Part shown: positions 9,634 through 21,059 of the stretch, in pieces
Layout of the letters: the number at the start of each line of letters is the position of its first letter
Numbering within the stretch: position 1 is the first letter of the stretch
Assembly: GCA_040755755.1 (NCBI GenBank)
Contig: JBFLZW010000063.1
Location: 1 to 34,685, forward strand
Source of the DNA: a bacterium
Lineage (GTDB): Bacteria > SZUA-182 > DTGQ01
Length of the DNA stretch: 34,685 bases
Direction: 5' to 3'
Made by a program: the position numbers and the translations under genes
Notes under the pieces: generated by a model
Database searches by the model: none
What the model was told of the DNA's origin: nothing
The model's input: the letters and a program-made list of their open reading frames with translations, nothing else

Positions 9634-11823
9634 ATGAAGAGAAGTAATGGGATCTTTGTCACCGGCACTGACACCGGCGTGGGAAAAACCATAGTGGCCG
9701 CTGGCCTGGCCCTTGGCCTGAAGCGGCAGGGGCTGAATGTAGGGATCATGAAGCCCGTTCAGACAGGTGCTGCCAGGCGCGAGGGAGGAGAGCTTTATTC
9801 TCCTGATGCTGTGTTTGTGCAAACAGCCCTGGAAGCTGGAGGTGGAAGTGGCCGTGAGATGCCACCCTGCTCCAGTCATCCTTTTCCCTTCAACCCCCAC
9901 ACCCCCTATGTGCTGAAGGAGCCCTTGGCACCCCTGGTCGCAGCCCGGCTGGAAGGGGTGGAGATAGAACCGGCCAGGATCATCGAAGCCAGCCATTGGA
10001 TGGCGGAGCACTCCGCATGTCTGGTGATCGAGGGAGCAGGAGGTGTTCTGGTGCCCATCAGCCGGAACTACCTGATGATCGACCTCATCAAGGACCTTGG
10101 CTTTCCTGTGGTCCTGGTGGCCAGGGTGTCTCTGGGCACCATCAACCACACGCTCCTGACCCTCGAAGCCCTGCGGCGGCGGGGGATCATCATAGCCGGA
10201 GTGGTCCTCAATCAGCCAGACCCCTCTCGACCCGGCATCTGTGAACAGACGAATCCGGAAGTCATTCAGGCCCTCGGCCAGGTGGATCTGCTGGGAATCA
10301 TGCCCTATTCGCCCTCTATCAGCCTCGAGCGGGGAGAAATCGGCAATCTGGAAGAGCTGGTTCACAGGCACCTTGATCTTGGGCTGCTTGCAAAAGTCCT
10401 GAAACCGGCCCTCCCTGGCCGGGAAGGGGCCGATGATTCTCAGGGAGAAGCCGGGCAGGAACTGCTCTCTTCCCAGCGCTCGGCCCTGCTCAAATCCTGG
10501 GACAGGCAGTATCTCTGGCACCCATTCACCCAGATGCAGGACTGGACCAGGGATGATCCCCTGGTCATCGAGCGGGGAGAGGGCGTATACCTGGAGGATT
10601 CCGACGGCAGGCGGTACCTTGACGGAGTTGCCAGTCTCTGGACCAATGTCCATGGCCACCGGAGGAGGGAAATCGATGAGGCCATCCAGGATCAATTGAC
10701 CAGGATCGGACACTCTACCCTGCTCGGTCTGACTCATGCTCCGGCTATCGAACTGGCCAAGCGCCTCATCCAGATCGCCCCCGCAGGACTGAGCCGGGTC
10801 TTTTACTCGGACAACGGGGCTACAGCCTGCGAAATCGCCCTGAAGATGGCTTTTCAGTATTGGCATCAGCAGGGGAAGGCTGAAAAAACAAGCTTTGTCT
10901 ACTTTGAAAACAGCTATCACGGAGATACTCTGGGAGCGGTCAGTGTCGGCGGCATTGATCTGTTTCATCAACTGTATCACCCGCTGCTCTTTCGCGGCTA
11001 CCGGGCAACATCCCCGTACTGCTACCGCTGCCCCTGTCAGCTTGAGCCCTCCTCGTGCGGGCTGCGCTGCCTGGAAACCCTGGAGCGCACTCTTCAGGAA
11101 CATGCTGAAGAGACCTGCGCCCTGATCATCGAGCCCTGCGTGCAGGGCGCTGGCGGCATGCTGGTGGCACCGCAAGGTTTTTTGCGCCGGGTGCGGGATT
11201 TGTGCGACCACTATCAGGTGCTGATGATCGCCGATGAGGTGGCGGTCGGGTTTGGCCGGACCGGCAGGATGTTTGCCTGCGAGCACGAAGATGTCCACCC
11301 CGACCTCCTGTGCATGGCCAAGGGGATAACCGGCGGATACCTCCCTCTGGCGGCCACCCTGGCTACGGAGAAGATCTATGAGGGTTTTTTGGGAGATTAC
11401 AGTCAGAAGCGGACCTTTTTCCACGGCCATACCTACACGGGAAATCCCCTGGCCTGCCGGGCTGCCCTGGCCAGTCTGGATATTTTCGACAGGGAAGGGG
11501 TAATTGGCCATGTTCAGGAAAGGGCAGAGCACCTCGCCGAGGGGCTGCGGAAGTTTTGGGAACTGCCCCATGTCGGAGATATCCGGCACAAGGGCCTGCT
11601 GGCCGGTATCGAGCTGGTCCGGGACAAAACAAGCCGGGAGCCCTATGGCTGGGAAGAGAAGACCGGCATCAGGGTCATTCAGGAGGCCCGGAAGATGGGC
11701 GTAATTCTCCGCCCCCTTGGCGACGTGATCGTGCTCATGCCACCTCTCTCCATTAACGCTGCGGAACTGGATGAGCTTCTGTCGGTTACGCTGAAAGCAA
11801 TCAGGCAGGTTACGGAAGGGTAA
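9634..11823 (+). CDS. bioDA: Bifunctional dethiobiotin synthetase / DAPA aminotransferase (BioD-BioA fusion)
   Basis: A 729-residue fusion catalysing two consecutive steps: KAPA to DAPA (BioA, SAM as amino donor) and DAPA to dethiobiotin (BioD, ATP and CO2). The BioD part is residues 1 to about 250, with Walker A GTDTGVGKT (11-19), KPVQTGA and EGAGGVLVPI. A charged linker of about 30 residues follows. BioA starts near residue 281 with WDRQYLWHPFTQM and has YSDNGATACEIALKMA, DEVAVGFGRTG and PLP lysine K563 in MAKGITGGYLP. The domain order runs opposite to the reaction order, as in the plant and fungal BIO3-BIO1 proteins. The reading frame is unbroken, and both halves retain their key residues. 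AGGAG precedes the ATG. Confidence 0.94.
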   Translation: MKRSNGIFVTGTDTGVGKTIVAAGLALGLKRQGLNVGIMKPVQTGAARREGGELYSPDAVFVQTALEAGGGSGREMPPCSSHPFPFNPHTPYVLKEPLAPLVAARLEGVEIEPARIIEASHWMAEHSACLVIEGAGGVLVPISRNYLMIDLIKDLGFPVVLVARVSLGTINHTLLTLEALRRRGIIIAGVVLNQPDPSRPGICEQTNPEVIQALGQVDLLGIMPYSPSISLERGEIGNLEELVHRHLDLGLLAKVLKPALPGREGADDSQGEAGQELLSSQRSALLKSWDRQYLWHPFTQMQDWTRDDPLVIERGEGVYLEDSDGRRYLDGVASLWTNVHGHRRREIDEAIQDQLTRIGHSTLLGLTHAPAIELAKRLIQIAPAGLSRVFYSDNGATACEIALKMAFQYWHQQGKAEKTSFVYFENSYHGDTLGAVSVGGIDLFHQLYHPLLFRGYRATSPYCYRCPCQLEPSSCGLRCLETLERTLQEHAEETCALIIEPCVQGAGGMLVAPQGFLRRVRDLCDHYQVLMIADEVAVGFGRTGRMFACEHEDVHPDLLCMAKGITGGYLPLAATLATEKIYEGFLGDYSQKRTFFHGHTYTGNPLACRAALASLDIFDREGVIGHVQERAEHLAEGLRKFWELPHVGDIRHKGLLAGIELVRDKTSREPYGWEEKTGIRVIQEARKMGVILRPLGDVIVLMPPLSINAAELDELLSVTLKAIRQVTEG

Positions 11824-12643: not shown

Positions 12644-12867
12644 TAACTGATAAACAGGAAAAAGGAGGTTAAGCACTTTCCAAGCAATAATAGGGATAAT
12701 AACAATACTCCATTAATCTACGCTAATAAGAGGCAAAGCTCATGAAGGAAGCTTACCATGCTTACTGCCCAAATGCCCCGGCTCAATAGCTGCGCGGCGG
12801 ATTTACTGGGCCGCGAATTTACTGATTCACTATGCAATGTTTAGCTAACTCAGGGCAGGAAGGCTCC

Positions 12868-14853
12868 ATGAAAAAGGTCGTACTTTCTTTTTTACCGATG
12901 CTTGTCTTTATCCTGGTGATAATCTCATGCCAGGCCCTGGCCGCTCAGGAAGAAAAGAGTATTCCAGTGCAGGGTGGGCAAAACCTTTCCCTGTATAAGG
13001 ACTGCTGCGCCCTGGTAGTGGGAGTGGGCAACTATGACCAGTGGCCGGACCTGCCCAATGCTGTCAACGATGCCAAAGAGGTTTCACGGTTTTTCCGGCA
13101 AAGGGCATTCAAAGTAAAACTGCTGACTGATCCGGGCTCTCAGGAATTGAAAAAAGCCCTTGATGATTTTGTCCGTGAAGCCGGACAGGAACAAGACCGC
13201 GCTATTGTCTTCTACTACGTCGGACATGGCAAGAGCCGGGTTATCGCCGATGGCACCAGGTGTGATTGGATCATTCCCCGGGATTGTCCTCTCCTTCAGG
13301 ATAACCCTCAGGGGTTTGACGACCGGGCCATTGACCTGAAGGCTCTCGTGAAGTTTTCAACACTCCTTCGATCAAAGCATGTGCTGATGCTGTTCGATGC
13401 ATCCTTTTCCGGAACTGCATTTTCTTATGAGCCAGCGGCACTGAAAATTATTGACCGCACGAGTGCTTTGCCGGTAAGGCAGTACATAATTGCCGGAAAA
13501 GAAGGTGAGCGTATCTCAGAGCAGAGCGTATTTAAACAATTCCTGCTCAAGGGCTTGGAGGGTGAAGCCGACTTGATTTACGATGGCTATATCACCGGAT
13601 CGGAGCTTGGCCACTACCTTATCGACATGGTTGAAAAGGTCACCGCAGGGTGGCAGCATCCGCAGTATGCCAAGGCCAGCGATCCGGCCCTGGCCGGTGG
13701 TGATTTCATCTTTCTGCCCGTAGAAGTTAAATCCGAAAGCGTCCGGCTGTTTGTGGAAACAGATCCCAAGGATGCCCAGGTGAAAATTTTGAATATCAAT
13801 CCGCGATTTGAACAGGGTATGGAACTGGAACCGGGAAAATACCATCTTGAGGTCTCAGCGTCCGGCTGCACAACCAAACAGGAGTGGATCACCCTCGAAC
13901 CTGGAGAGGATAAAAAATTCGAAATACACCTTGAGAAAGAACCGGCGAAAGAACAAGAGCAAGAACCCGGAAAAGCACCTGGGAAAGAACAGGGGAAAGA
14001 GTCCGGGAAAGGTGAAAATGCTCTGTTCAACAGCCTGGGCATGGAGTTTGTGTTTATCAAGCCTGGCAGCTTTGTTATGGGCAGTCCAGCCGGAAGTGGC
14101 GGAGAGCCCGATGATGAGAAGGAGCACCGGGTAACCATAAGTAAAGGATTCTACATCCAGACTATGGAGGTTACAATGGGCCAGTTCCGGAAATTTATCC
14201 AGGCAACCGGCTATGGCGGTATCGAGTCGGAGAAGAAAAGCGGCTGCTGGGTGAAAGCCGAAGGGGGAATATGGAGGCAGAAAAAAGGCATTGGCTGGGA
14301 TAGCCGCCGCACCTGGGAATCAGCGGAATCTGCGCAAACCGAACGGCATCCGGTAACCTGCGTGACCTGGAACGATGCCCAGGCCTTCATCAAATGGTTA
14401 AGCCGTAAGGAAGGTGCTGTTTATGACCTGCCTACTGAAGCGGAGTGGGAATACGCCTGCCGCGCAGGAACAATCACCCCCTTCTCCTTTGGCCGGTGTT
14501 TGTCCACGGATCAGGCCAACTACGATGGCATTGGTCCCCTTTTTGCCGACTGCCAAGGCTCTTACCGTCTGGCCCGCTACCGGCCGATCGAGACAGGAAG
14601 CCTTGCACCCAATCCCTGGAGGCTTTTTGATATGCACGGAAATGTTGCCGAGTGGTGCCAGGACTGGTATGCCCCTTACCCCGACGGCCCGGCTACGGAC
14701 CCCAAAGGACCACCAGAAGGCACGGAGCGCGTAATGCGCGGCGGCCACTGGGCAACTGATGCCCGGGGATGCTGCTCCGCCAGACGCTGGAGCCTCCCGC
14801 CCGACGCTGCTTCTGAAGCGGTCGGGTTTCGACTGGTTGTGAGGAGGCGGTAG
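12868..14853 (+). CDS. Secreted caspase-like (C14) / PEGA-like / FGE-sulfatase-domain protein, predicted protease-dead
   Basis: 661 residues. The N-terminus has a signal peptide; IISC could be a lipobox, and ALAAQ is an alternative SPase I site. A caspase-like domain spans about residues 45-270: LVVGVGNYD, NAVNDAKEV and the catalytic-type histidine H120 in YYVGHGKS. The catalytic cysteine motif, normally DACxSG, reads DASFSG with S179. A PEGA-like beta domain (about 290-365) and a Lys/Glu/Pro-rich linker (about 365-385) follow. The C-terminus is an FGE/SUMF1-like domain (about 390-661) with TMEVTMGQFRKF, LPTEAEWEYACRAGT, DMHGNVAEWCQDWY and VMRGGHW. The ATG at 12868 is preferred over 12832 because AGGAAGG precedes it and the signal peptide then starts at residue 1. 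Function is probably binding or scaffolding outside the cytoplasm; this is inferred. Confidence 0.85.
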   Translation: MKKVVLSFLPMLVFILVIISCQALAAQEEKSIPVQGGQNLSLYKDCCALVVGVGNYDQWPDLPNAVNDAKEVSRFFRQRAFKVKLLTDPGSQELKKALDDFVREAGQEQDRAIVFYYVGHGKSRVIADGTRCDWIIPRDCPLLQDNPQGFDDRAIDLKALVKFSTLLRSKHVLMLFDASFSGTAFSYEPAALKIIDRTSALPVRQYIIAGKEGERISEQSVFKQFLLKGLEGEADLIYDGYITGSELGHYLIDMVEKVTAGWQHPQYAKASDPALAGGDFIFLPVEVKSESVRLFVETDPKDAQVKILNINPRFEQGMELEPGKYHLEVSASGCTTKQEWITLEPGEDKKFEIHLEKEPAKEQEQEPGKAPGKEQGKESGKGENALFNSLGMEFVFIKPGSFVMGSPAGSGGEPDDEKEHRVTISKGFYIQTMEVTMGQFRKFIQATGYGGIESEKKSGCWVKAEGGIWRQKKGIGWDSRRTWESAESAQTERHPVTCVTWNDAQAFIKWLSRKEGAVYDLPTEAEWEYACRAGTITPFSFGRCLSTDQANYDGIGPLFADCQGSYRLARYRPIETGSLAPNPWRLFDMHGNVAEWCQDWYAPYPDGPATDPKGPPEGTERVMRGGHWATDARGCCSARRWSLPPDAASEAVGFRLVVRRR

Positions 14854-16531: not shown

Positions 16532-16800
16532 TTTCACATCTCCCGGTACTTTGAGCGTGCAGGTGTTCTGACGGTTATCGGAATAAGCCGCCGGTTTTCA
16601 TTACGGAGCCACTCGCTGGTAAATTCCGCCAATACCTCGGCTGGATTGGTAAAAAGTGACGGCTGGCAATATGAAGACAGCCAGTAACAACTTTACTGAG
16701 CGGAAACCGATGAGGCTTAAAAATGGATGTACGCATGCTCTCCCAAAAACAATCAATGAATCCGATGGGATGGGGAAAGACAATTACGAAAAGGAAACAA

Positions 16801-19290
16801 ATGATGAGACATCAAATGGTTATGCATCGCTGGGTTACTCGCATTGTGCTCGGTTTTCTTCTGCCACCAGCCCTTGTTCTTGCTGTCATTGCCCCTGGTT
16901 CGGCAGGCAGCAATAATCCCTGTTGCGCCAGCGGCAGGCAGGGCTCTTTTATCCGATCATACATGCCGCCCAATGAGGTCAGCATGCTGTTTTCCTTCAG
17001 TGCCGGAGGAACCTGGTGTCAGGGGATATCCGGAATCGAGGCAAAAAAGGCCTGTATGGATTACCTGCAGCAAAAACTCGGTAAAAGGCCGGAGGACCGC
17101 CCTCACCCGATAGGGGCCGTTTCCCTGGCCAGAGGAGAAAAAAGCGGCAGGAGAATCGTCAACCATCACGGGCAAACAAGGGTCGATGGAGTAAAAACCG
17201 ATTGTATTCTCATCCTTCTGGTGGAATTTGCCGGTACTGACGATTCCCATACCGGGCCGCTGCATAATGAATTGCCGGAACCTGACCGCAGGTACAACCT
17301 TCTGGACTTCTGGACCCCGGATTTCAACCGGGAGCATTATGAAAACATGCTCTTTTCCCAGTCTCCGGGAGCATTGTCCATGGCTAATTACTATCTGGAG
17401 CAGTCAGGAGGCACCTATACGGTAACCGGGCATGCATACGGCTGGATACCGGTTGGCCATTCCGAGTGGTACTACGGCGCGGATGATCCCGAAGGGGGAA
17501 TCGACAACCTCAATGGATATGTCTTCCGGCTGGTCAGGGATGCAATCGATGCTGCCGCTGATTCCATCCCCTGGGCTGATTACGATCTCGAAGACCCGTA
17601 TGATCTGGACGGGGACGGCAGCTATGCCGAGCCTGACGGGTATGTGGATCACCTCATGATCATTCATGCCGGTGCAGGCCAGGAGGACCGGGGCGGGCAG
17701 CAGGGCGATGATGCGATCTGGTCACACAGCGGCTGGGCTGAGTGGCACCTTGACCGCGGCCCCGGTTTCGGGGGGATACCGACCGCAGACCCCGGAGTAT
17801 GGGTGGGTGCCTATACCATGGAGCCGGAAGACGGGACCATCGGCGTGTTCTGTCATGAGTTCGGCCATGACCTTGGCCTTCCTGACGAATACGACACCAT
17901 ATACAGCGGTGATGCCTCGACAGGCTATTGGACCCTGATGTCAGCCGGTGCCTGGCTGAGCCTTCCCGGCCAGCCGCTGGGCACCTGCCCTGCCGGCCTC
18001 AGCGTCTGGGCAAAGTATACTCTCGGCTGGGCGGAGCCGATTGTCATCGAGCCCGGAAAGATGCGGGAAGACATCCTGCTTCGGCCTGTAGAGAACAGGG
18101 GATTGACCGATAAATGCATCAAAATCGATCTCCCGGCCTTTATCTCCACAATCGAGATCAACAAGCCCCACAGCGGTGAACACGAGTGGCATTCGGGTAT
18201 GGGGAATAGCTTCCGCCATACCCTGACCCGGCGGCTGAACCTTCCTTCCGGTACGGTTTTACGGTTCTGGACCTGGTACGATATCGAAAAAGACTGGGAT
18301 TACGGATGCGTGGAAGTCTCTTCGGATGCAGGCGGAACATGGCAGAAGGTAGCGGGGAATATCACCACGTGCGACGATCCTCATGGCCAGAATCCCGGAC
18401 ACGGAATCACCGGCCAGAGCAAAGAATGGGTACGGGCCGAATTCGACCTGTCGGCATTCAGCGGAGAGGTGAATCTCCGATTCCGGTATCTGACTGACCG
18501 TGATGTGCAGGGCCTGGGGTGGGTCCTCGACGACCTTGAGTTTGTCAGCGGCTCCGGCAGCACGATCTTTGCGGATGACGTGGAGTCCGGTGCCGGAGCC
18601 TGGGCAGCCAAAGGTTGGTACATCTCCAGCGGCTCGGAAAAGCGCACGGAGCCCCGGTATTATCTTGCTGAATGGCGTGAGCCCATAGGTTTCGATATTG
18701 GCATGACCAACTGGTTCCACCGGGTCGATACTGTCCCGCCCAATAACCTGGTGGAGAAAGTGTGCGCTGACCCTGGCATGCTGCTCTGGTACCGTGATGG
18801 ACAATTCACCGATAACTGGGTGGGAAAGCACCCCTGGAAGGGGTTTTTGCTGCTCGTGGATGCCCATCCTGAGCTTGTCCTGGCCGATAATACGGCCTTT
18901 CTGGCCAACTGGCTGTTCGAGCCTCCGGCCCCGCGTTTTGAGCCGCCATATCCGAACAGGGACCTCCCCTTCTGCACCCGCATCCAGATCGCTGACGCTG
19001 CCTTCGGGCTGAAGCCGACTTCAGGCTGCGGTCTGACCAGATGGTTTGGATTGCCCGTATGCGCTCAAATGCCGCAACTTCCCGCAAGTCCGGTATTTGA
19101 CGATTCAATCTGCTATGTCGATAAATCCTGGTCGGCCTGGTATCAATCCGTACCGTTTGGCGTCTATATCCGTGAGTCCATCAACAGCGTCGAAACGCCT
19201 GCCTGCGGGCTGAAGATCATCGTTCAGGAAGAGAGCCCTGACGGAGAAGGAGGCAGGATAACGGTGGATTTCACCGGCTTCAGGCCATGA
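16801..19290 (+). CDS. Secreted M6-family metalloprotease (immune inhibitor A-like)
   Basis: 829 residues counted from the ATG at 16801, which gives a signal peptide directly (RIVLGFLLPPALVLAVIAPG, then SAGS) and has AAGGAA upstream; an in-frame ATG at 16723 would add a poorly suited leader. The zinc site is HEFGHDLGLPDE, H352 to E363, typical of M6 peptidases, with MSAG (the Met-turn region) downstream. The domain holds Asp-rich, probably calcium-binding stretches (DLDGDGSYAEPDG). Residues about 455-600 form a MAM/jelly-roll-like region (FWTWYDIEKDWDYG, WVLDDLEF), as in immune inhibitor A. Secreted proteolysis is well supported; the substrate is unknown. The gene converges with the S10 peptidase. 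Confidence 0.88.
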   Translation: MMRHQMVMHRWVTRIVLGFLLPPALVLAVIAPGSAGSNNPCCASGRQGSFIRSYMPPNEVSMLFSFSAGGTWCQGISGIEAKKACMDYLQQKLGKRPEDRPHPIGAVSLARGEKSGRRIVNHHGQTRVDGVKTDCILILLVEFAGTDDSHTGPLHNELPEPDRRYNLLDFWTPDFNREHYENMLFSQSPGALSMANYYLEQSGGTYTVTGHAYGWIPVGHSEWYYGADDPEGGIDNLNGYVFRLVRDAIDAAADSIPWADYDLEDPYDLDGDGSYAEPDGYVDHLMIIHAGAGQEDRGGQQGDDAIWSHSGWAEWHLDRGPGFGGIPTADPGVWVGAYTMEPEDGTIGVFCHEFGHDLGLPDEYDTIYSGDASTGYWTLMSAGAWLSLPGQPLGTCPAGLSVWAKYTLGWAEPIVIEPGKMREDILLRPVENRGLTDKCIKIDLPAFISTIEINKPHSGEHEWHSGMGNSFRHTLTRRLNLPSGTVLRFWTWYDIEKDWDYGCVEVSSDAGGTWQKVAGNITTCDDPHGQNPGHGITGQSKEWVRAEFDLSAFSGEVNLRFRYLTDRDVQGLGWVLDDLEFVSGSGSTIFADDVESGAGAWAAKGWYISSGSEKRTEPRYYLAEWREPIGFDIGMTNWFHRVDTVPPNNLVEKVCADPGMLLWYRDGQFTDNWVGKHPWKGFLLLVDAHPELVLADNTAFLANWLFEPPAPRFEPPYPNRDLPFCTRIQIADAAFGLKPTSGCGLTRWFGLPVCAQMPQLPASPVFDDSICYVDKSWSAWYQSVPFGVYIRESINSVETPACGLKIIVQEESPDGEGGRITVDFTGFRP

Positions 19291-19367: not shown

Positions 19368-21059
19368 CTAACGCTCTAACGCAAATGCCGTGTTCATGAA
19401 GTTGGCCACGTCGCTGGTCAGTTTTTTCAAAGATGGCAGATGCACATAGATCTGGTGTCCGACATCGTAGTATGCAATCGTGACATTGCCCTGCAGGCCG
19501 GGGTCGAGGCCAAGATGACTGACCGTATAATCAGTAGCGAAATAGGGTGTAGTCAGGTCATAATAGCCTGCGGCTATCAGTACCTTCAGATACTTGTTCT
19601 TGCTGATAGCTTCTCGCAGGGTTGCGGTGACATTGGTGAATCCCTGCCCTTCATGATGACCCAATCCCCAGTTCCAGGAGCGATTCACCTCCTCATTGAG
19701 AACCTCATACTGAAGGTCGTTGACATACTTAAGCTCATTGCGTACATAATCGCTCATGGCCGCTCCAAAAGGTCCCATAACCAGAAAGAGTGAAGGGTCA
19801 TACTCGTCATACTCCTGGCCGGCGTCAGGATCGGGGCCTTCAAACCGGCCATCCAGGAGGCCGATTATCCGGTGTTCCTTCCGAAGCAGCTCCCTGGTGA
19901 AATCGATGTGGCTGATTCGCAGGTTATGACTGCTGATATAGGTGGGGGAAAGGGAGGTATAGCGGGCCAGTTTTTCGATCACCCGATCCCGCTCAGAACC
20001 TGAGAGTGCGGCACCTTTCAGCAAAGCCAGGCTGTATTCGTTCATTGCCCAGCCCTCGGCTTCCTTCAGGAGTCTGGGCAAATCGCTCGATTGCAGATCA
20101 GGGGAGAGCTTCTTATGGTACCATGCGGCTGCCGTATACGTGGGTAAAAACAGAGAACAGGGCAGATCGTTGCCCTGGTTGAACATGATGGTCTGAAAGT
20201 CCAGGGCCGGTGAGATAAGCACCAGACCATTGAGATTCAGATTGACCTTATCCTGAAGGAATCCGGCCAGCTCTGCGGCCCTGGTTGCACCGTAGCTTTC
20301 ACCGGCAATGAACTTCGGCGACGACCAGCGCCCGAACCGGGTAACGTAGAGGCGAATAAAATCCCCGGCAAGATTGATATCCTCCCGAAAGCTGTAAAAC
20401 CGCTTCGGATCGATGCCGGAACGGGCCCCGGCGTGGTGCCCGGTGGTGCCGGACTTCTCACCTGATCCGGCACCGGATTCAGAATCAGGCCGGGAGGGGG
20501 GGCGGCTGTAGCCGGTGCCTATGGGATCAACAAAAACAAGGTCGGTGAAGTTAAGCCAGGTATATTCATTATCGAGCAGCCGGTAGGGAGGCGAGGCATT
20601 TTTGCCCTCATCTTTCAGGAATATCCGCCGGGGACCAAGAGCACCCAGGTGCAGAAAGACCGAAGCTGCTCCCGGCCCGCCGTTAAAGGCAAAGGTGAGC
20701 GGCCATTTGCCTTTGTTCTTCCGGTCATCCCGTTCATAGGCGACAAAAAACAGATCGGCCTTGGGCTGGCCCGATTCTTCCTTGATCTCCAGATAGCCTG
20801 CCGTGGCCGTATATCTCAGAGTCTGGCCATTGACGGTAATTTCCCGGTGCGTGACCGAAAGCTCTTTGGTGTTAGATTCATCCGCCTTTTTCCCGGTCGT
20901 GTCCGGAGATTGCTGTTCGCCTCCGGCCGGTTCGGTCGTGGTTTTGGCGACCGGCGGATCCTGGGTCGCACCACGGGCCCTGCCTGGTGCGGCAGGACAC
21001 ATGACAAACACTACCACAGCGGCAATCAGGGAAATACTACCTCGGTGCTGCTTTTTCAT
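19368..21059 (-). CDS. Secreted serine carboxypeptidase (peptidase family S10)
   Basis: 563 residues with a signal peptide (ISLIAAVVVFVMCPAAPG) and a low-complexity Thr/Glu/Gln linker to about residue 70. The S10 core has the oxyanion-hole segment FNGGPGAASVFLH, WLNFTDLVFVDPIGTGYSRP, the nucleophile S255 in AGESYGATRAAE, the acid in GYYDLTTPYFATDY and the histidine in YDVGHQIYVH. All triad residues are present. S10 enzymes remove C-terminal residues and usually prefer acidic pH; bacterial members are exported. The start has GGAGGAAAGG upstream. Together with the M6 peptidase it makes a convergent pair of exported proteases, fitting degradation of external protein. Confidence 0.9.
   Translation of the reverse strand: MKKQHRGSISLIAAVVVFVMCPAAPGRARGATQDPPVAKTTTEPAGGEQQSPDTTGKKADESNTKELSVTHREITVNGQTLRYTATAGYLEIKEESGQPKADLFFVAYERDDRKNKGKWPLTFAFNGGPGAASVFLHLGALGPRRIFLKDEGKNASPPYRLLDNEYTWLNFTDLVFVDPIGTGYSRPPSRPDSESGAGSGEKSGTTGHHAGARSGIDPKRFYSFREDINLAGDFIRLYVTRFGRWSSPKFIAGESYGATRAAELAGFLQDKVNLNLNGLVLISPALDFQTIMFNQGNDLPCSLFLPTYTAAAWYHKKLSPDLQSSDLPRLLKEAEGWAMNEYSLALLKGAALSGSERDRVIEKLARYTSLSPTYISSHNLRISHIDFTRELLRKEHRIIGLLDGRFEGPDPDAGQEYDEYDPSLFLVMGPFGAAMSDYVRNELKYVNDLQYEVLNEEVNRSWNWGLGHHEGQGFTNVTATLREAISKNKYLKVLIAAGYYDLTTPYFATDYTVSHLGLDPGLQGNVTIAYYDVGHQIYVHLPSLKKLTSDVANFMNTAFALER

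Follow-up and report, generated by a model that had tools for sequence, protein, structure and literature searches.

A protein encoded in a 34,685-nucleotide window of bacterial DNA combines an orthocaspase domain, a PEGA domain and an FGE-sulfatase domain, and has Ser where the catalytic Cys of its caspase domain would normally stand. The comparisons described here support the view that this Cys-to-Ser replacement is fixed and that the caspase-FGE protein carrying it, which is probably exported, has been retained. We consider it likely that this protein is a maintained pseudo-orthocaspase that serves, after export, as a binder or scaffold.

The window covers contig C63 either entirely or in its first part; the genome, made up of 88 contigs, belongs to a small phylum. 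The gene (12868..14853, + strand, like all features of the protein given below) lies in an open reading frame that extends from 12832 to 14853. Its start is the ATG at 12868, a few bases downstream of the sequence AGGAAGG, its stop codon ends at 14853, and the product has 661 amino acids. Residues 1-26 (12868..12945) resemble a signal peptide as judged by eye, and the protein is probably exported, as the original prediction had stated. The orthocaspase (C14) domain occupies residues 39-283 (12982..13716) according to Pfam, alignment and Foldseek. It is followed by the PEGA domain (residues about 293-358, 13744..13941), for which the Pfam match covers residues 319-358 and the start is taken from the orthologue's match. 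A charged linker rich in Glu, Lys, Gly and Pro is apparent from the sequence (residues 360-385, 13945..14022), and the FGE-sulfatase domain (residues 393-657, 14044..14838) is established by Pfam, structure-database alignment and Foldseek.

A Pfam scan of the whole protein detects Peptidase_C14 (PF00656, 7.5e-16) and FGE-sulfatase (PF03781, 3.4e-51). PEGA (PF08308) is unlisted in that scan, and a separate scan of its region places it above the curated cut-off (24.4 vs 20.8 bits). The fusion of caspase-like, PEGA-like and FGE-like parts that had been read from the sequence is thus borne out for all three families. No separate p10 domain appears in the Pfam scan, and the segment past Ser179 is covered by Pfam alone. 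An AlphaFold model was calculated from a 21-row alignment and used at the level of single domains (pLDDT 71, pTM 0.47); its caspase and FGE cores are confident. The best Foldseek matches are human FGE (1y1h, 2.1e-18) for the FGE part and MALT1 (3v4o, 2.8e-11, TM-score 0.72 by target length) for the caspase part. Sequence searches of solved structures agree, also returning MALT1 and FGE for the respective parts. PvdO is among the best solved relatives of the FGE domain, which also matches structural proteins, PorK among them.

The caspase domain was originally described as keeping the histidine motif YYVGHG while reading DASFSG instead of DACxSG. A profile alignment of 139 caspase domains confirms this description, including the residue number 179: the His-Cys (HC) dyad is altered at one residue, with His120 (13225..13227) retained and Ser179 (codon TCC, 13402..13404) in place of Cys. 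The DxCxSG-type motif therefore lacks its catalytic Cys, appearing as DASFSG in the window protein and as DASFTD in its orthologue. The alignment also indicates that two pocket-type acids are kept, Asp68 (13069..13071) and Asp177 (13396..13398). Both acids are present in the two His-Ser (HS) proteins and in 114 of 125 HC domains. We take them, by analogy, to be equivalents of residues in the MALT1 P1 pocket; a paper search found no literature support for this assignment.

Past the active site lies an EF-hand-like loop (DLIYDGYITGSE, residues 235-246, 13570..13605), which in HC relatives mostly conforms to D-x-[N/D]-x-D-G and which we infer to bind calcium. In the alignment, Ile occupies the third ligand position in both HS proteins. 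Among the HC domains that have both flanking Asp residues, this position is N, D, E, S, T or Q in 67 of 69. No general coupling between loss of the dyad and loss of the EF-type loop was seen in the collected domains, many broken ones retaining DxN/DxD.

Full-length searches of 60 genomes and caspase-domain searches of the phylum yielded one full-length orthologue (G003:C520), a protein of 640 amino acids with 49% identity that is encoded in another genus of the same family. Its domain order is identical and all domains are kept; the charged linker is mostly absent. Its active-site motifs are YFSGHG and DASFTD, so that TD replaces SG directly past the active-site Ser, whose codon is TCC as in the window gene. 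Close homologues with Cys at residue 179 had been proposed as the sign of a sporadic substitution or a sequencing error. The sole close full-length homologue found instead carries Ser, which makes both of these explanations unlikely; the conservation of Ser is a matter of two sequences. The full-length and caspase-domain searches gave no match in a genome of the same genus (G001) rated 96% complete. No further HS orthologues occur among the matches fetched from phylum searches of 9, 4, 50, 4, 7 and 7 genomes and from a search of 386 genomes; the whole-protein scan of genome contigs was dominated by FGE matches.

No neighbourhood common to the window gene and its orthologue is evident, and orthology is therefore judged solely from sequence. 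The orthologue's contig, 4.5 kb long, encodes a protein kinase whose tail is PEGA-like (recognized by eye), and the window gene is accompanied by biotin-synthesis genes, a photolyase gene and an M6 peptidase gene. The last of these, an immune inhibitor A-like metallopeptidase gene (16723-19290), is located two genes downstream and is followed on the opposite strand by an S10 serine-carboxypeptidase-like gene (19368-21059). Within the run of biotin-synthesis-like genes, a single open reading frame (9634-11823) encodes a BioA-like aminotransferase fused to an AAA_26 domain resembling BioD. A reading of the gene as part of a defence system found no support in PADLOC, which returned a generic caspase model only (1.1e-8) and nothing for the two neighbours scanned.

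A broken fragment of the pseudo-orthocaspase gene is present elsewhere in the same genome (L118:9291-9549, contig C6, minus strand). It consists of 222 bases of the FGE 3' end (98% identity) adjoining 39 bases of the PEGA region, with the intervening stretch missing and with single-base indels. A separate HC caspase gene lies roughly 5 kb from this fragment.

The two HS proteins share 51% identity in the caspase domain and 54% in the FGE part. For comparison, the caspase domains of an HC pair from the same two genomes (G000:C24 and G003:C481) are 68% identical. Judged by these alignments, the HS protein as a whole diverges faster than that HC protein, yet it is retained, with full-length frames intact.

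To place the substitution among other caspase domains, we used a purpose-built profile, which recovered 113 distinct domains at first and 139 after later searches. The sample comprises the searched loci and 60 hand-picked stretches, and covers part of the matches listed from the 386-genome search. The HC dyad is found in 125 of the 139 domains and HS in two, which are the window protein and its orthologue. HA also occurs twice (L209, L022), and nine dyads occur in single domains: HD (L148), HQ (L183), SA (L191), HF (L127), HG (L175), YV (L192), YC (L195), RA (L221) and YA (L242). One further domain has no aligned His column. Dyad loss is thus recurrent (13/139 domains), and those broken domains that were included in the tree are scattered across it. 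The 21 FGE-fused domains consist of 16 HC, two HS and one each of RA, HG and HA. A link between FGE fusion and dyad loss was considered, with 5 of 17 FGE-fused domains broken vs 7 of 95 others (Fisher p 0.018, for 112 of the 113 domains, the one without an aligned His column being left out). When the HS pair that had prompted the search is removed, p becomes 0.14, and we make no such claim.

A tree of 108 of the 113 domains, those with segments of at least 180 residues, was inferred with IQ-TREE. The HS pair forms one clade (support 100/99) inside a clade of 10 rows (99/91) that also holds five HC rows and three other broken dyads. Cys-bearing members of this larger clade include the FGE-fused G245:C41 and L063 and the PEGA-bearing G003:C457. 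The simplest account of this arrangement would be a single old Cys-to-Ser change that preceded the split of the two genera; the tree is unrooted, and the direction of change is not provable from it. G003:C457 (L115:2800-4965) is encoded in the same genome as the HS orthologue. It has the motif DSCFSG, and combines PEGA with Lcl_C domains instead of FGE.

In the FGE-like domain, the alignment with human FGE, read by eye, matches only the second of the two active-site Cys residues of FGE: Thr630 (14755..14757) stands at human Cys336 and Cys635 (14770..14772) at human Cys341. The absence of the first catalytic Cys, also part of the original prediction, is therefore confirmed. Mutation of five residues is reported to alter FGE activity, namely Ser333, Cys336, His337, Tyr340 and Cys341 (PMC4505483). 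Their equivalents are His627, Thr630, Asp631, Gly634 and Cys635, so that one of the five is kept. Among 99 FGE-like domains found by motif search in our loci, a biased sample because the loci were picked as relatives of the query, Cys occupies the first position in two and the second in 41. The statement that both enzymatic domains are altered accordingly holds for the caspase domain, which has lost its Cys, and is overstated for the FGE domain. With 97 of 99 sampled FGE-like domains lacking the first Cys, we set aside the idea of a doubly dead enzyme as something special. For the same reason, the FGE domain of the window protein looks typical of the broad family that shares this fold, with no sign of damage.

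Several known systems resemble the window protein. MALT1 paracaspase, which sequence and Foldseek searches both rank first among solved relatives of the caspase domain, is a catalytically active Cys protease set in another domain context. TbMC1 and TbMC4 of Trypanosoma brucei are eukaryotic type I metacaspases that are not known to contain an FGE or PEGA domain. In both, Ser replaces the catalytic Cys, by HS and YS substitutions (PMC6426788). Formylglycine-generating enzyme and PvdO share the FGE-sulfatase fold over the whole domain, and differ in the activity residues, among which the window protein has the Cys341 equivalent only. Fusions of C14 with FGE-sulfatase have been described, the latter domain occurring in 33 of 671 prokaryotic caspase homologues, with Ser as the commonest replacement of Cys (43%) and with a Trichodesmium caspase-FGE protein whose dyad is replaced (PMC3501461). 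As far as the dyads named there allow comparison, the window protein is set apart by its intervening PEGA domain and its His-Ser dyad.

Bacterial pseudo-orthocaspases are likewise established as proteins in which a caspase p20-type domain has its HC dyad replaced, frequently with Ser for Cys; dyad variants track domain architectures, and clades with conserved function have been proposed (PMC6426788). Those described there come mostly from Alphaproteobacteria and Cyanobacteria and have dyads such as Tyr-Ser and Tyr-Asn, whereas the window protein has His-Ser, belongs to a small phylum and carries PEGA and FGE-like domains. Deletion of a pseudo-orthocaspase in Synechocystis led to higher tolerance of oxidative stress (PMC7889975). 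Supplements aside, our literature search found no paper evidently concerned with a His-Ser caspase-PEGA-FGE protein. Fusions of caspase and FGE domains, like pseudo-orthocaspases with Ser for Cys, have been published before, and the window protein adds to a described kind.

The original prediction left a choice between a non-catalytic receptor or scaffold and a Ser-based variant. We favour the non-catalytic alternative because a ligand of the EF-hand-like loop is lost, because SG is lost in the orthologue and because divergence is faster, while recognizing that sequence by itself leaves the choice unsettled. Most simply, the nucleophile would have been lost through one ancient Cys-to-Ser change in the lineage from which the window protein and its orthologue descend, leaving the caspase fold, the pocket acids and His120 in place. 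The protein would be exported across the cytoplasmic membrane, as its N-terminus suggests, and may act outside as a binding module. Its caspase domain could hold basic peptides without cutting them, with PEGA and the linker spacing this domain from the envelope and the FGE-fold domain providing a second binding surface. In one concrete form, the protein might act as a decoy for, or regulate, Cys-bearing orthocaspases that the same genomes encode. Two more caspases, each with an HC dyad, are encoded in the genome of the window protein. One of them (C24) is only 24% identical to the window protein, which counts against a decoy role.

One counterpoint to a pseudo-enzyme is that Ser can act as a nucleophile and that His120 survives here; in the pseudo dyads most often published, His is lost as well (PMC6426788). 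Ser179 and His120 might accordingly serve as a serine hydrolase on the caspase fold, perhaps free of calcium. Such an enzyme would fit the preserved pocket acids and Gly-His-Gly turn as well as His120, and also the fact that both genera have Ser at the site and not Ala, Gly or something bulkier. We nevertheless regard it as unlikely, given the lost loop ligand, the faster divergence and the TD that stands for SG just past the site in the orthologue. Moreover, other broken dyads carry A, F, V, D, Q or G, which makes loss of function the common course, and those relatives of caspases already known to have Ser at the site are considered inactive (PMC6426788). Less probable still is the fuller proposal of a working Cys-to-Ser swap fixed in one lineage together with loss of the calcium-loop ligand, which would yield a calcium-independent serine orthocaspase outside the cytoplasm.

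It is similarly doubtful that the FGE-like domain is the working part, performing another chemistry in the manner of PvdO or other members of the family while the caspase domain serves for docking only. That domain is full length and is the slightly better conserved half (54% vs 51%), and a PvdO relationship would suit this role; against it, of the five residues tied to FGE activity (PMC4505483) four are changed, and the domain is widespread in multi-domain proteins and matches structural proteins such as PorK. The poorest prospect is a gene in decay, with a caspase heading toward a pseudogene. Divergence beyond that of the HC pair, the broken recent copy of the gene's 3' part and the lack of a match in G001 are all compatible with decay, but the two genera, whose proteins are 49% identical, have intact frames of 661 and 640 codons with no domain missing.

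The window protein alone changes no current view. As what is probably a maintained, non-catalytic binding protein, it extends the pseudo-orthocaspases by a His-Ser lineage from beyond the groups that account for most reports, kept between two genera that also encode Cys-bearing caspases. It could help in asking whether caspase-fold proteins serve as exported binders, and whether Ser is able to take the place of Cys on a caspase fold.
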